Origin: Armatimonadota bacterium
GTDB lineage: Bacteria > Armatimonadota > Fimbriimonadia > Fimbriimonadales > Fimbriimonadaceae
Assembly (NCBI GenBank): GCA_021413725.1
Contig: JAIOPU010000070.1
Location: 1 to 38,570 of the forward strand
DNA: 38,570 nucleotides
Reading direction: 5' to 3'
Shown: positions 5,531 to 11,359 of the stretch, piece by piece
Position numbering within the stretch: position 1 is the stretch's first letter
How the letters are laid out: each line of letters begins with the position of its first letter
The notes under the pieces: generated by a model
Told to the model about the DNA's origin: nothing
Databases searched by the model: none
What the model saw: only the letters and a program-made list of their open reading frames with translations
Program-made: the position numbers and the translations under genes

Positions 5531-5564
5531 ATTGTGCCCCGTTTTCTCGGTATTCTTGCGAGTG

Positions 5565-6092
5565 ATGATCGCAGTAGTCCTCGCAGCAACACTGGTCGGG
5601 AGCGGCACGCTCACCGGCCCCAAAATTCAAGTCACTTTCACAAGCGGAAAGTCTTTCGTGATTCAAACCGACGCCAAAGGTTCACCCCTCACCACGAAGC
5701 ACATCGTTGAACTCGTGAAGAAGAAGTTCTATGACGGTATTAAGTTCCACCGCGTCGAAGATTGGGTAGTTCAATGGGGCGATCCCGCTTCGAAGAAAGG
5801 CCTGAACGGTAACATCGGCAACGGTGGATCTGGTAAGCCCGTAAAATTTGAGGCGGGCAAAATCTCGTTCCTCCGTGGAGCGGTGGGAATGGCTTCCACC
5901 GGCAGCAAAGTTGGGGGCGATTCACAAATTTTTGTCGTGCGCAAAGACAGTTCTTTCCTCGACGGAAATTATGCGATCCTCGGTCAGGTTATAAGCGGCA
6001 TGGACGTGATCGACAAAATCGCGACCGGCGACACGATCAAGAGCATGATCGTGATGGGTGTGAAGTCGGTCAAGAAGCCGATCAAGAAATAG
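5565..6092 (+). CDS. Exported cyclophilin-type peptidyl-prolyl isomerase
   Basis: The 175-residue protein is a cyclophilin, catalysing cis-trans isomerisation of Xaa-Pro bonds. KIQVTFTSG opens the fold, FHRVEDWVVQWGDP (about residues 64-77) corresponds to the FHRVIPGFMIQGGDP catalytic segment with the conserved Arg, and GMASTGSKVGGDSQIFVV corresponds to the GMA...SQFFI region. The N-terminal MIAVVLAATLVGSG looks like a signal peptide, so it probably works outside the cytoplasm. The ATG at 5565 leaves 34 bp to the divergent kinase start; an upstream in-frame ATG at 5511 would add a second hydrophobic stretch and overlap that gene. TATTCT lies 8 nt before the chosen ATG. The stop overlaps the next start by one base (TAGTG). 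Confidence 0.88.
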   Translation: MIAVVLAATLVGSGTLTGPKIQVTFTSGKSFVIQTDAKGSPLTTKHIVELVKKKFYDGIKFHRVEDWVVQWGDPASKKGLNGNIGNGGSGKPVKFEAGKISFLRGAVGMASTGSKVGGDSQIFVVRKDSSFLDGNYAILGQVISGMDVIDKIATGDTIKSMIVMGVKSVKKPIKK

Positions 6093-6889
6093 TGTTCGGT
6101 GAGTCCTTCGCGGAAGCATGGGCGGCACGCTACGGCGCGCCGCCCACCGCTGATTTTCCCGAGTTAGGACCGTTTTTGCGGCATCGCAGCGTTCGCGCCT
6201 TTTCGGATCGACCTGTTTCCGAGGAGCTGATTTCAGCTTTGGTGGGAGCCGCCCAAAGTGCCAGCACCAGTAGCAATTTGCAGCTTTACTCCATGGTCAG
6301 CGTTCAGGATCGGGCTTTGCGTGCAAAGCTAAATGAATTCACGAGCAATCAATCTCAAGTCACAACCGCTCCATGGTTTTTCGCGTTCTGCGCCGACCAT
6401 TCTCGTCTGCGGCTCGCTGCATCGGGTTCAGAAGCAGACAATTTAGACTACGAAGACTACTTTCTCATGGCGGTCGTCGACGCCGCCCTCGCGGCTGAGC
6501 GAATGACCGTCACCGCTGAAGCCATGGGCTTGGGCGTCTGCTATATCGGTGCTCTCCGGAACAATCCCGCCGCTGTCGCCGACCTTCTTGGCTTTCCGGA
6601 CGGAGTCTTTGGGGTCTTCGGTCTCTGCCTTGGCTATCCCGCCGAGCAGTGCGATGCCGCGATCAAGCCGCGACTCCACCAGGACGCAATCTGGTTTCGA
6701 GAGCGATACGACGCGAAAATCGGCGTAGAAGAATACAATGCCAGAATGGCAAAGTTCTACAAAAGCCAAAGTCAAGATCCGACCGTGACATGGTCGCAGC
6801 GGAGTTTGCGTCGGCTAGAGAAGAAATACATGTCCGGTCGGGAAGTCATCAAGGCGTGGCTCGAAAAAACCGGCTTCGTTCGCCGCTAA
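6092..6889 (+). CDS. Nitroreductase family (NfsA/Frp-like) oxidoreductase
   Basis: The 265-residue protein matches FMN-dependent NADPH nitroreductases of the NfsA/Frp group. Hallmarks are the N-terminal RHRSVRAFSDRPVSEE (FMN phosphate contact), AAQSASTSSNLQLYS, the AERMTVTAEAMGLGVCYIG helix-strand region and GLCLGYPAE. The C-terminal extension (about 200-265, basic) is also typical of this subgroup. It reduces flavins, quinones or nitro-compounds in the cytoplasm. The GTG at 6092 overlaps the cyclophilin stop by one base, suggesting translational coupling. Physiological substrate unknown. Confidence 0.9.
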   Translation: MFGESFAEAWAARYGAPPTADFPELGPFLRHRSVRAFSDRPVSEELISALVGAAQSASTSSNLQLYSMVSVQDRALRAKLNEFTSNQSQVTTAPWFFAFCADHSRLRLAASGSEADNLDYEDYFLMAVVDAALAAERMTVTAEAMGLGVCYIGALRNNPAAVADLLGFPDGVFGVFGLCLGYPAEQCDAAIKPRLHQDAIWFRERYDAKIGVEEYNARMAKFYKSQSQDPTVTWSQRSLRRLEKKYMSGREVIKAWLEKTGFVRR

Positions 6890-6929
6890 CAAGAAAATTA
6901 AGCGGGAACGATATTTCTTCGAAAAAAGG

Positions 6930-6959
6930 TTGACTTTTGTAGGTGCCTTCCCGCATAAT
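6930..6959 (+). promoter_or_regulatory. Sigma-70-type promoter for the DnaJ-WD40 gene
   Basis: TTGACT at 6930-6935 and CATAAT at 6954-6959 are separated by 18 bp, the best -35/-10 pair in the window. The predicted transcription start near 6966 is only about six bases before the ATG at 6972, leaving no room for a Shine-Dalgarno site. Confidence 0.7.
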
Positions 6960-6971
6960 CAGTACACAGTG

Positions 6972-8126
6972 ATGAGTCTCTATGAAATATTGGGCGTAGA
7001 CCCAACCGCAAAACCCTCCGTCGTCCGTAGCGCCTACCGAAAATTGGCTCGCGAGTGCCACCCGGACGTCAACGATGATCCCGCTGCGCACGAGAAAATG
7101 GCCGAGATCAACTCGGCTTATCAGACCCTGATCGATCCGATCCGCCGCCAGGAATATGACCAGGCGCGCGACCCTGCCCCACCTGCTTCCACGCGCGTGG
7201 ACGAGCGACAGTTTGAGGACGCCAACCAGCTTAACATTCGCCTCCTGCACCGGCTCAAAGCGCACAAGACCCCGATTTACGCGGTCAGCTTTGCTCCGGA
7301 CAGCGGTCAAATGGTCTCCAGTTCCTTTGATAACGAAGTGATCTGGTGGAATCCAGTGACTTTCGAACCTAGCCGCAAGCTCAAGCTCGAAGGCGGTGTC
7401 GTCTCGACCGTACAGGCTCTCGAAGCCGACCGAATCGTCGCCGCCGGTAGCTCCGAGAGCGTGGTTTCGGTCTGGACTCTGGATGGTGAGCGCATCGAAT
7501 CCTGGCGCAACAACCCGCTAGAATGGGTCTGCTGCGTGGGCGTCTCCGGTGACGGCCGAAATGTCGCCATGGGCAGTGTCTACAACACACTCCAAGTTTG
7601 CCGCACAAAGAGCGGGGATGCCGTCTTCGCAGGAACGACTCACAGCCAATCGGTGACTGCGGTGACGTGGTCCAATGACAACCGCTACATCGCCACCGGG
7701 TCTGCCGACGCAACGGTAAAGCTGTGGTCGGGTGTGACCGGACAAGAGTTGACGACCTTCAAGGCTGTTCGCTCGACGGTTTCTTGCATCGCTTTCAGCC
7801 CCGATGCGCAGTACATGGCGGTCGCCGCCGTTGACCTTTCGATCCGGATCTTCCGAATGTCGGACTACACGCACATCAAGACCTTCTTCGGTCACGAAAA
7901 GCCGATTGAAGCGATGGCGTTCCATCCGAACGGAATGCTCCTCGGTAGCGTTTCGCGCGATGGCACGGTCGGACTCTGGAACGTCTTGCAAGGTCAAAAC
8001 CACGTCAAGATCAACGCGAGCGCTCAGCCTCTGGCCGCGATTGCGTTCAGTCCGGATGGGTCGAAGCTTGCCGCTGCAGGTTTAGATCGAATGCTCCGCG
8101 TCTGGGAACTTGAGTTCAGCAAGTAA
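6972..8126 (+). CDS. J-domain/WD40 repeat fusion protein
   Basis: The 384-residue cytoplasmic protein joins an N-terminal J-domain (about residues 1-62: SLYEILGVD, then CHPDV with the HPD triad at 30-32, then NSAYQTL) to a C-terminal beta-propeller of about seven WD40 repeats (about 95-384). Repeats show IYAVSFAPD, VTAVTWSNDNRYIATGSAD, VSCIAFSPDAQYMAVAAVD and IAFSPDGSKLAAAG endings, with degenerate WD dipeptides (KLWSG, RVWEL). There is no Gly/Phe region, zinc finger or DnaJ C-terminal domain. The HPD indicates recruitment of a DnaK-type Hsp70 to whatever the propeller binds; the client is unknown. Start M at 6972 sits directly before the J-domain. Downstream, the stop is followed by a 64-bp palindrome. 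Confidence 0.9.
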   Translation: MSLYEILGVDPTAKPSVVRSAYRKLARECHPDVNDDPAAHEKMAEINSAYQTLIDPIRRQEYDQARDPAPPASTRVDERQFEDANQLNIRLLHRLKAHKTPIYAVSFAPDSGQMVSSSFDNEVIWWNPVTFEPSRKLKLEGGVVSTVQALEADRIVAAGSSESVVSVWTLDGERIESWRNNPLEWVCCVGVSGDGRNVAMGSVYNTLQVCRTKSGDAVFAGTTHSQSVTAVTWSNDNRYIATGSADATVKLWSGVTGQELTTFKAVRSTVSCIAFSPDAQYMAVAAVDLSIRIFRMSDYTHIKTFFGHEKPIEAMAFHPNGMLLGSVSRDGTVGLWNVLQGQNHVKINASAQPLAAIAFSPDGSKLAAAGLDRMLRVWELEFSK

Positions 8127-8190
8127 GCCATAACGAAGTCAATTTATCGGTAATGAAATTATTTTTCATTGCCGATAATTTCGTTATGGC
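8127..8190. repeat. 64-bp near-perfect palindrome spanning promoter and start codon
   Basis: Outer arms 8127-8137 (GCCATAACGAA) and 8180-8190 are an exact 11-bp inverted match. Inner arms 8144-8158 and 8164-8178 match in 14 of 15 positions, with a 5-nt loop TTATT at 8159-8163. The arms are offset by a 6-nt left and 1-nt right insertion. The element begins right after the DnaJ-WD40 stop and contains both the -10 box and the ATG of the metal-binding protein. It could be an operator, or a hairpin in read-through mRNA. There is no T-tract, so it is not a classic terminator. Confidence 0.85.
8174..8179 (+). promoter_or_regulatory. -10 box (leaderless) for the metal-binding protein
   Basis: GATAAT lies exactly 6 nt before the ATG at 8186, inside the right arm of the palindrome. 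A transcript would start at the ATG itself and would not contain the hairpin. Confidence 0.6.
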
Positions 8191-8779
8191 GGATGAACAG
8201 TTTCCAAAAGGCATTGTAGCGGGGGTCGCAGTGGGGGTAGTTGCCCTCGTGCTTCTGTCTGTAAGCGTGCCGAAATCCAAAACAACGCTTGGCGAAGACT
8301 CCCACTCTCACTCGCACGAATCGGATTCGCATGAGAAAATATCGGCACCACTCGGGCCAGAGTACAACGAGTTCAACAAGAACGACGAACATCACCATGA
8401 TGAACACGACCACGATGGGCACCACCATGATGAAGGTGGTCATGGATCAACAGAGATGCCCGCAAAATTAGACAGTGACGTTGCGGCATCGGTTTTTTCA
8501 TCGCCTTCAGGCCAATATACAAAAGCGGACATCGCACTCAATGGAATTCAGACTCCCGAGGAAAAGTTCAAAGCTATTCGCTCGTCCCACGACATGCATC
8601 CCAAGCCAGGCTCAGCGATTTGTCCGATCACAAGCACGAAGGCGAACCCCGCATTTAGTTGGTGGGTTGGAGGGAAGAAGTACATCTTCTGCTGCCCTCC
8701 CTGTATTGAAGAGTGGGTTGTAAAAGCGAAAGCTAGCAAGGTGCCGTTTGCTCCCCCTGAATCGTTCATTGCCAAGTAG
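8186..8779 (+). CDS. Membrane-anchored His-rich protein with TRASH/YHS-like metal site
   Basis: The 197-residue protein has one N-terminal membrane helix (about 9-28, GIVAGVAVGVVALVLLSVSV). A His/Asp/Glu-rich region follows at about 38-86, with clusters such as HSHSH, HHHDEHDHDGHHHDEGGH, and then a C-terminal domain with Cys146 (AICPITSTKANP) and Cys169, Cys170 and Cys173 (YIFCCPPCIEEW). That cysteine pattern resembles TRASH/YHS metal-binding domains. A role in binding or passing on zinc, copper or nickel at the envelope is inferred. I chose ATG 8186 over the in-frame ATG at 8153 because GATAAT lies 6 nt upstream of 8186 and 8153 falls within the palindrome's left arm. No transporter or metal regulator gene is adjacent. 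Confidence 0.8.
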   Translation: MADEQFPKGIVAGVAVGVVALVLLSVSVPKSKTTLGEDSHSHSHESDSHEKISAPLGPEYNEFNKNDEHHHDEHDHDGHHHDEGGHGSTEMPAKLDSDVAASVFSSPSGQYTKADIALNGIQTPEEKFKAIRSSHDMHPKPGSAICPITSTKANPAFSWWVGGKKYIFCCPPCIEEWVVKAKASKVPFAPPESFIAK

Positions 8780-8780
8780 C

Positions 8781-8817
8781 AAAAAGGCGCCGCTCCCACC
8801 GAAGTAGGAACGACGCC
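8781..8817 (-). terminator. Rho-independent terminator, leftward
   Basis: Stem 8807-8817 with 8786-8796 pairs over 11 bp when read leftward (two G-U pairs that become C-A mismatches rightward), with loop 8797-8806. The minus strand then has five T (8785-8781). It therefore terminates a leftward transcript, not the rightward gene that ends at 8779. Confidence 0.7.
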
Positions 8818-8919
8818 ACTCCCCTTCCAGTAACTTTAGCGCAGGCGATTTCTGATCGTAGGCATGACTGCTCGAGAACTGCTATCGAGTAACCTCGCTG
8901 CAGGACTTTCGTTTCTAAT
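8781..8919 (-). ncRNA. Candidate small RNA or long 3' UTR
   Basis: No open frame fits the 234 bp between 8779 and 9014, yet a good leftward terminator sits at 8781-8817, about 200 bp past the nearest leftward stop codon. A possible promoter is TTGCGA (minus, 8952-8947) with TATAAC (8931-8926); the 15-bp spacing is short. The transcript of about 139 nt would contain small hairpins such as GACTATT/AAAGTC and CTCGA/TCGAG. I do not recognise a known RNA family: no SRP, 6S, tmRNA or RNase P signature. The alternative is a long 3' UTR of the gene at 9014-10336. Confidence 0.3.
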
Positions 8920-9013
8920 AGTCTGGTTATAATTTATCAGGTCTTTTCGCAACCTCTTGCTACAGCAGCACCCCTGAAAACCAGCGAATAGACCGGTTAT
9001 TAAGCGCCTATGC

Positions 9014-10336
9014 TTACTGGCTCGCCGCTGGTTGAGACAGACCTTTGTCCCCTAAGAAGCTCTTGCGCCACTTCATCCGCGAAATGATCTGGCTTTCATA
9101 GTCCCCCAGATCCATTGGATCCGTCAGCTTCTTCGCCTCAAAAGTCTCCGCGCAAACCCGGCTCAAAAGGCTTAAATTGCCCGTATTGACCTTACGATCC
9201 ATAAGGGTCGCCATCCCAGCCTCAGAACGAATGATGTCCGAAATAACCACTGAACGTCCAGCAAACTTCACCTTATCGTCGGCGGGATAGTAGTTGTTGC
9301 GCGCAACCTGAAGTTGCGAAACTCTAAAGCTATTGCTCAAGCGGCCTGCGCGAACAAAGACAGCCGCAAGTCGTTTGTCCTCAATAATTTCCATTGCGGC
9401 TTCGGAGCCGGTGACGATCTTTCCACTGCCGAGATTGACCACGGACAGATAATTGTCGAAGGTCACATCAATCCCATAGCGCCGAAAATCAGAATCAAAA
9501 GTGAACGGGTCGCGCGTCTTATACGCCCCCATGAGTTCGCCCAAGGAACCTTTACCCTCGGCTAATGATGCGAATTGAATGAAGCCGACCGACACGAAGC
9601 CAGTGTCGTAAGTATTGAAAGAGTCAAAGCCTCCTTCGAGAGGGCTTATAGCGCACATCACGCGCTGGATCGAACCGTTCAGATTCGCAGTTTCAAAAAG
9701 TGTGTCAACTGTCTTCGGATCAAGCTGCGTGAGTTGGGTTCCTTCGGTGTTCACGCCCTGCGGGAATCGGTAATAAGTGTAGTTGCTTCGCATTGCAGGA
9801 TTGTCTTCCAGTGCAATCTTGGTCCCGTCCTCGAAAACAACTTCGTGTACATGAGGCACGACTGCCGCGGCAAACTTAGGTGCATCACCGATTTGCAACA
9901 TCAACTCCGCCGGGCATGGCCCGGGACTGATCGGCGCGATTCCGTCTTGCGGTGGCAAAGCAGAACCGCCCGCTTCTTTATTCTTGGCGCGGCATAGGTC
10001 CGCCGCCTCCCAGCGATCGAAAGCGATTCGGCTCTTTACCCACTGTTCCCAGGTCAGTTGACTTGGATCAGTCGTGCCTGCGTCTTCGTTCGGAGCAACC
10101 TTGCCCGCAAAACCTTTTACTTTGTTGTATTTGGAAAGCCACTTGGAGCCTTCTGCGGTGAGCCGGACCTGCCATTTTCCGACTTTAGCCTCCTTCATCG
10201 AAGGCTTGATCTCATATTTGGCGGTCTTCTTCCAATATTCCTGGACGTCCTGGACATCCATTCCGGCCGCAGTTTTGGCCGGGGCAATCGATGCGCCCAT
10301 GGCTATCCCAAAAATAAACAAGCGAAAAATTCCCAT
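9014..10336 (-). CDS. Secreted protein with lysozyme-like segment
   Basis: This 440-residue protein has an N-terminal signal peptide (MGIFRLFIFGIAMGASIAPA) and no other membrane segment. Residues about 235-330 contain CAISPLEGGFDSFNTYDTGF, then VSVGFIQFASLAEGKGSL. A Glu-Gly-Gly followed by a Gly-x-x-Gln-Phe element recalls lysozyme/transglycosylase-type folds that cut peptidoglycan, but catalytic function is unproven. The central part is rich in W and charged residues without a recognised domain. The long upstream frame extension overlaps the divergent promoter region and is rejected; ATG 10336 has a weak -10-like GATGAT six bases upstream. It is divergent from the PrcB-like gene across 129 bp. 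Confidence 0.7.
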   Translation of the reverse strand: MGIFRLFIFGIAMGASIAPAKTAAGMDVQDVQEYWKKTAKYEIKPSMKEAKVGKWQVRLTAEGSKWLSKYNKVKGFAGKVAPNEDAGTTDPSQLTWEQWVKSRIAFDRWEAADLCRAKNKEAGGSALPPQDGIAPISPGPCPAELMLQIGDAPKFAAAVVPHVHEVVFEDGTKIALEDNPAMRSNYTYYRFPQGVNTEGTQLTQLDPKTVDTLFETANLNGSIQRVMCAISPLEGGFDSFNTYDTGFVSVGFIQFASLAEGKGSLGELMGAYKTRDPFTFDSDFRRYGIDVTFDNYLSVVNLGSGKIVTGSEAAMEIIEDKRLAAVFVRAGRLSNSFRVSQLQVARNNYYPADDKVKFAGRSVVISDIIRSEAGMATLMDRKVNTGNLSLLSRVCAETFEAKKLTDPMDLGDYESQIISRMKWRKSFLGDKGLSQPAASQ

Positions 10337-10453
10337 ATTGGAATCATCGGAAAAAACTTTGAAATTCTCTAGCGAAAACACAGAGCATTTTAACCTTTCT
10401 CGGATATACCCCCTTTTCGCACTAAAGTGTAACCAGCACGGCGGACTAAACGT

Positions 10454-10459
10454 TAGAAT
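10454..10459 (+). promoter_or_regulatory. -10 box (leaderless) for the PrcB-like gene
   Basis: TAGAAT lies exactly 6 nt before the ATG at 10466. No TTGACA-like -35 is visible at normal spacing. Confidence 0.6.
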
Positions 10460-10465
10460 TTTAAG

Positions 10466-11359
10466 ATGAAGAAAACTCGACTTCTCTTGATTTTGGGATT
10501 GTGCCTCACCATGGCCATCGCCGCTGTCGCACAACCCTATGTGAAATGGCGAACACTGAGCAAGGGAACGGACTCGAAGCAGACGAAGTACAGCTTCAAC
10601 CAGTTCCAAGTTGCGTCAGATTGGCAAAACATGTGGCGTGCTATTGGACAGCGCGGCAACGCCCCGAGCGTGAACTTTGACAAGGAAGCCGTGCTTTTCA
10701 TCAACCTGGAAACGCAAAACAAAGCCTGCACCAGCGTCTATGTTCAGACGGTCGACTACAAGGCCGGGGACATCATTGTTAAGGCCGTCCGAAGTCTCGT
10801 TGATCACGACCAAAAAGGAACCTCGAATCCCTATGTCGCAATTGCCTACGAGCGAATTGCGGGGACTCCCAAGATTCAAATAAAGGACATTTGCGAGCCG
10901 GTCACCTTCGTCCCTAATCGACGTTGGGGCTCGGGCTACGATGTTCAATTCCCGGTCGACATTGCCTTCGAAGTCGAGCTTGATGGTAAGAATTGCGATA
11001 TCGCTGGCCCCCTTTCCCTGGTGATCCAGGACCGAACCACTCTTCGCGCGTACTGGGATCGACTCTTTTTCACGATGAGGGCGTCCGACGTGCCGGACCT
11101 TCCACAAATTGATTTCCGCGACGACTTCTTGGTGGCGATTCACCTTGGGACCAAGTCTCAAGGCAACTACGGCCTCGGCGTGTACAGCATCAAGGTCCAC
11201 AATCCGCAAGAGACGGTCATCCAGTGGTACGAAGACACTCCGCCCGCCGGAGCCATGTCCACCATGCAAATCACCCAACCCTTCGTCCTCATCCGAGTCC
11301 CTCGGACCACGCCGATAGTCAAGGTGCAGAAGATGATGGGCAAGCCATTCGGTTACTGA
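10466..11359 (+). CDS. Secreted protein with two PrcB-like domains
   Basis: The 297-residue protein starts with a clear Sec signal peptide (MKKTRLLLILGLCLTMAIAAVA, cleavage after AVAQ). It appears to hold two copies of a PrcB C-terminal-like domain. The first (about 40-155) has FQVASDWQNMWRAIG and VNFDKEAVLFINL. The second (about 180-297) has LRAYWDRLFF, LPQIDFRDDFLVAIHLG and a GLGVYSIKVHN strand followed by an FVLIRVPR ending. In Treponema, PrcB is an accessory lipoprotein of the PrcA protease complex; whether this protein partners a protease is unknown. The start is supported by the TAGAAT box 6 nt upstream. Nothing in the neighbourhood encodes an obvious partner protease. Confidence 0.75.
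   Translation: MKKTRLLLILGLCLTMAIAAVAQPYVKWRTLSKGTDSKQTKYSFNQFQVASDWQNMWRAIGQRGNAPSVNFDKEAVLFINLETQNKACTSVYVQTVDYKAGDIIVKAVRSLVDHDQKGTSNPYVAIAYERIAGTPKIQIKDICEPVTFVPNRRWGSGYDVQFPVDIAFEVELDGKNCDIAGPLSLVIQDRTTLRAYWDRLFFTMRASDVPDLPQIDFRDDFLVAIHLGTKSQGNYGLGVYSIKVHNPQETVIQWYEDTPPAGAMSTMQITQPFVLIRVPRTTPIVKVQKMMGKPFGY

Follow-up and report, generated by a model that had tools for sequence, protein, structure and literature searches.

At positions 8127-8190 of the window (the whole 38,570-nucleotide stretch of DNA that was analysed), a nearly perfect 64-base inverted repeat lies between two genes, and the question it raises is whether this palindrome governs the expression of the second gene, and at which level, or is a relic of the event that made the two genes neighbours. 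A preliminary description had proposed a metal-responsive operator that doubles as a block on read-through expression. Our best reading, from sequence comparison, is that the locus holds a young, species-specific quasi-palindrome at the junction of a DnaJ-WD40 operon and an acquired, probably metal-binding, gene; going by modelled folds, we tentatively favour, with somewhat less than even confidence, a role in which its position would gate translation of the acquired gene in read-through mRNA. The features of the locus are as follows.

6972..8126, plus strand: upstream gene, a DnaJ domain fused to WD40 repeats (Pfam DnaJ and WD40)
8127..8138, plus strand: outer left arm GCCATAACGAAG (arm alignment, DNA fold)
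8139..8143, plus strand: one-sided bulge TCAAT, 5 nt (DNA fold)
8144..8158, plus strand: inner left arm TTATCGGTAATGAAA (arm alignment, DNA fold, pattern scan)
8154..8168, no strand assigned: centre TGAAATTATTTTTCA, weakly Zur/Fur-like 7-1-7, probably incidental (motif comparison)
8159..8163, plus strand: loop TTATT (RNA fold, DNA fold)
8164..8178, plus strand: inner right arm TTTCATTGCCGATAA (arm alignment, DNA fold, pattern scan)
8174..8179, plus strand: candidate leaderless -10 box GATAAT, hexamer exactly at -12 from the ATG
8179..8190, plus strand: outer right arm TTTCGTTATGGC, with the start codon inside (arm alignment, DNA fold)
8186..8779, plus strand: downstream gene, 197 aa (open reading frame, sub-threshold TRASH match, patchy homologues)
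8786..8817, minus strand: ordinary intrinsic terminator of the convergent gene 9014-10609 (pattern scan, terminator score)

The palindrome occupies the entire gap between the two genes: the DnaJ-WD40 stop codon (TAA, 8124-8126) directly adjoins the left arm, and the likely ATG of the downstream gene (8186-8188) sits in the right arm. This start is the most likely one because the resulting N-terminus is similar to the one found in the G048 homologue (MSKGNLIGLVLGIALLGML), with a short polar stretch followed by a membrane segment. Beyond its N-terminal membrane segment, the 197-aa protein contains a His-rich stretch and, C-terminally, a TRASH/YHS-like CP...CCPPC domain, features that make metal binding likely and to that extent bear out its earlier labelling as a metal-binding protein, although the TRASH-domain match itself is sub-threshold (E 0.008, with homologues down to 0.0004). 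The upstream gene has an orthologue with 81% identity in a same-genus genome, G001.

Arm alignment confirmed the extent and match counts first reported for the palindrome, as well as its coverage of GATAAT and ATG 8186 directly after the upstream stop. Segments 8127-8137 and 8180-8190 match at 11 of 11 positions, and segments 8141-8158 and 8164-8181 show 89% complementarity. As a single hairpin, the sequence has an outer stem of 12 bp, separated by a one-sided bulge of 5 nt from an inner stem of 15 bp, which a loop of 5 nt closes; all 27 stem positions are paired (25 Watson-Crick, 2 G-U), and the bulge is the sole interruption. Both arm mismatches are single-base differences that become G-U pairs in the sense RNA, which is no more than suggestive; two such cases could be chance. 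The palindrome as a whole far exceeds what chance would produce, judging from fold z-scores and simulated DNA: the RNA fold of 8110-8215 reaches -39.6 kcal/mol (z -8.16, equalled by 0 of 200 shuffles), the DNA fold of 8127-8190 reaches -21.8 kcal/mol (z -9.75), and DNA simulated with equal dinucleotide content yielded no hairpin scoring at least 16, against approximately 19.4 for the palindrome. That score ranks seventh among the hairpins of the 536 kb scanned as background out of the 3.13-Mb genome. An assembly fold-back artefact was rejected, given that two substitutions and a 5-nt insertion distinguish the arms and that each flank has a homologue in G001. Also rejected was a dyad reaching into both coding regions, its continuous extension being non-significant (p 0.47) and the local flank match marginal (p 0.026). 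As separate observations on genome content, 11 hairpins scoring at least 18 were counted in 536 kb of this genome versus 1 in 400 kb of G001, and short tandem palindrome-rich repeat arrays, some within open frames, were seen at L111:19588-19727, L114:16277-16453, L120:15228-15359 and L103:6509-6659.

Counting this genome, homologues of the downstream gene were detected in 14 of the 291 genomes of the phylum, and also in Pirellulales/Planctomycetaceae MAGs; none was found in G001, where the junction, the metal gene and the palindrome are all missing. G001 carries on one strand the homologue of gene 9014, a peptidyl-prolyl isomerase, a nitroreductase and DnaJ-WD40, followed by an ordinary terminator and a ubiE-like gene (so labelled from its translation). 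Comparison of window positions 5559-10609 with G001 locus L160 showed the isomerase-nitroreductase-DnaJ-WD40 block inverted relative to gene 9014-10609, with the palindrome and the metal gene placed exactly at the rearranged junction. Searches showed the palindrome itself to be single-copy in this genome and absent from 84 other family genomes, with only chance matches in 290 other phylum genomes, two short ones of which, checked in context, fold into no comparable palindrome; plasmid, phage and viral-contig collections likewise held no copy, and a known RNA family was rejected because no Rfam family matched. Upstream regions of the downstream-gene homologues contained no similar palindrome, nor any hairpin of comparable strength covering the start; several bear Shine-Dalgarno-like sequences in its place. 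With neither a second copy nor a hairpin upstream of homologues, the palindrome cannot be counted as a REP-type repeat or as a conserved operator. The preliminary description had taken scattered REP-type copies, or a lack of conservation upstream of orthologues, as evidence against its operator; scattered copies were not seen, the palindrome being single-copy across genome, family and phylum, and conservation was absent.

These searches also bear on whether the palindrome is the remnant of a palindromic mobile element, whether two abutted terminal repeats, a MITE, a REP or an attC-like site. A long inverted repeat adjoining an acquired gene would fit such an origin, as would the presence of other REP/MITE-like palindromes in this genome, but with no second copy in any collection and no target-site duplication seen around it we consider this very unlikely, and a dispersed repeat or mobile element was rejected. 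An integron attC site was rejected in turn, as the pattern RYYYAAC/GTTRRRY of attC sites is not matched by the palindrome ends GCCATAAC and GTTATGGC. Elsewhere in this genome, a multi-copy REP/MITE-like palindromic element (GCCCTCA...TCTCCCAGAGGGAGAGG...) occurs at approximately 10 places in 0.54 Mb, for example at L087:6595-6699, L120:15580-15683 and L120:17406-17518.

A more serious alternative is that the inverted repeat arose by template switching at the rearrangement junction and has no function. Long hairpins can be created by this process in one event (PMC8794818), and a single-copy, species-specific palindrome at the junction of an inverted gene block, in a genome with many other strong hairpins, is what such an event could leave behind. 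Against a functionless repeat stand the stem paired at every position apart from the bulge, the two substitutions that each preserve pairing in the sense RNA, and the placement of the palindrome, which begins right at the upstream stop and finishes over the downstream start. Described template-switch quasi-palindromes (PMC8794818, PMC7202029) are similarly imperfect, single-copy, lineage-specific inverted repeats near rearrangements, the difference being that we infer the origin here without the ancestral junction sequence. The palindrome probably owes its origin to replication template switching in the course of the rearrangement that joined the genes. Evidence from one genome, too few for covariation, is compatible with both a selected gate and a neutral relic; for this reason the gate is held only tentatively, and a neutral relic, while on the unlikely side, keeps a substantial share of our belief.

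The operator first proposed would bind a metal-sensing dimer (Fur/Zur, or of ArsR/MerR type) over the promoter. Its geometry has some appeal, with the dyad axis (8161) at approximately -25, between the -10 and a -35 position, and the genome encodes two Fur-family proteins, one of them beside a catalase-peroxidase-like gene. Scored against Fur/Zur consensus strings, the centre TGAAATTATTTTTCA matches one Zur-type 7-1-7 pattern, one of 13 motifs tried, at 12 of 14 positions, a level that 0.7% of compositionally matched random palindromes attain; its agreement with Fur (10/14) and Bacillus subtilis Zur (8/14) is lower. However, no canonical box was found near either Fur-family gene, and the suggested genome scan gave no sign of a regulon: of the other top matches, the 14 that were inspected all lie inside open reading frames. 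The half-sites TAATGA/TCATTG, previously likened to those of Fur/Zur-type regulators, do not have Fur's spacing, and 27-bp arms with a one-sided bulge are more than such a dimer needs. Known Zur/Fur operators (PMC6103462) share with this locus an AT-rich dyad over the promoter of a probable metal-binding protein gene, and differ in that here there is no regulon, no conservation and much greater arm length. The palindrome is not a conserved metal switch, and because of the location of the 14 sites, the missing boxes and the lack of conservation upstream of homologues, we regard any operator role as improbable.

A further reading makes the palindrome a transcription terminator of the DnaJ-WD40 operon. 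G001 has a terminator at exactly this place, and the inner stem, with the tail TTTCGTTATG, is among the hits of the pattern scan. The stem is AT-rich and its T-run poor, however, and by the terminator scoring formula the inner stem scores -11.8 and the full palindrome -60.4, whereas the G001 terminator reaches +19.4 and the neighbouring one +31.1. On these scores an intrinsic terminator was rejected, leaving termination here a slim prospect, and with no intrinsic-terminator potential between the genes, read-through from the DnaJ-WD40 operon is plausible.

In such a read-through mRNA, folding predicts that the long hairpin encloses the downstream start codon, with the ATG bases unpaired at a probability of at most 0.001. 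Constrained folds with a ribosome at the DnaJ-WD40 stop gave unpaired probabilities for A, U and G of 0.992, 0.900 and 0.169 when 6 nt beyond the stop were covered, and of 0.952, 0.796 and 0.663 when 9 nt were covered; for a leaderless RNA starting at the ATG, the predicted values were 0.999, 0.915 and 0.155. By these probabilities, the hairpin would block untranslated read-through RNA, yet a ribosome finishing DnaJ-WD40 would open it. The earlier idea of a read-through block is therefore retained in part: the start is predicted to be locked in read-through RNA, with A and U open in the leaderless form, but a terminating ribosome would reopen it. As modelled, making the metal protein from read-through mRNA would require a ribosome to halt on the stop codon next to the palindrome and pull the outer stem open.

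This predicted behaviour matches RNA-unfolding coupling, an established model (PMC12548453). Coupled pairs with a start-sequestering intercistronic hairpin resemble this locus in the hairpin over the downstream start and the abutting upstream stop, and differ in that here the stem is longer, AT-rich and fills the entire gap, the downstream start has no Shine-Dalgarno sequence, coupling is predicted from folding, and a possible leaderless promoter lies within the stem (PMC12548453). Against gating count the lower coupling efficiency reported from one screen for structure just 3′ of the stop codon (reviewed in PMC12548453), the low efficiency expected here for want of a Shine-Dalgarno sequence, and the homologues, whose starts lie under no comparable hairpin. 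Should the gate be real, a hairpin arising from one mutation can insulate or couple an acquired gene dropped behind an operon, and promoter and lock share the same 64 bases; if it is not, this is another striking promoter palindrome that need not be an operator.

The leaderless promoter proposed by the preliminary description would offer a second route to the protein. Counted over 301 genes of this genome, TANNNT is most frequent at -12 from the start codon (27 genes, against a background of approximately 5), and the same peak was found in G001 (23 of 196 genes, background approximately 2), with G at -14 and -13 in approximately 60% of the seed set. TANNNT at -12 is a real leaderless-promoter signature in both genomes and agrees with the one published for leaderless bacterial genes (PMC3160421). 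The box at 8174 has a G in place of the consensus first T and is preceded by CC instead of the lineage's GG; of start candidates, 6.7% attain its score of 0.71 bits at -12, versus 2.4% of background positions, and the promoter pattern scan found no sigma-70-type -35/-10 pair at GATAAT. As in the TA-led leaderless genes (PMC3160421), a TANNNT-type hexamer stands at -12 from an ATG with no Shine-Dalgarno sequence; the departures lie in the hexamer GATAAT itself and the CC before it. With the lineage signature and the exact -12 placement in its favour, and the moderate -10 match and missing sigma-70-type pair against it, a leaderless promoter of the downstream gene's own at GATAAT is plausible. 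A transcript from this weak promoter would begin at the ATG and escape the lock. That one palindrome combines leaderless promoter and RNA lock for the same start codon, providing two separately gated routes to the protein, strikes us as a long shot; were it so, own-promoter mRNA would be freely translated, and read-through mRNA only alongside translation of the upstream gene. Across loci L081-L140 of the two genomes (this one, G000, and G001), the leaderless signature GGTANNNT, with its hexamer at -12, is common to both, which suggests that this lineage makes use of leaderless promoters of that type.
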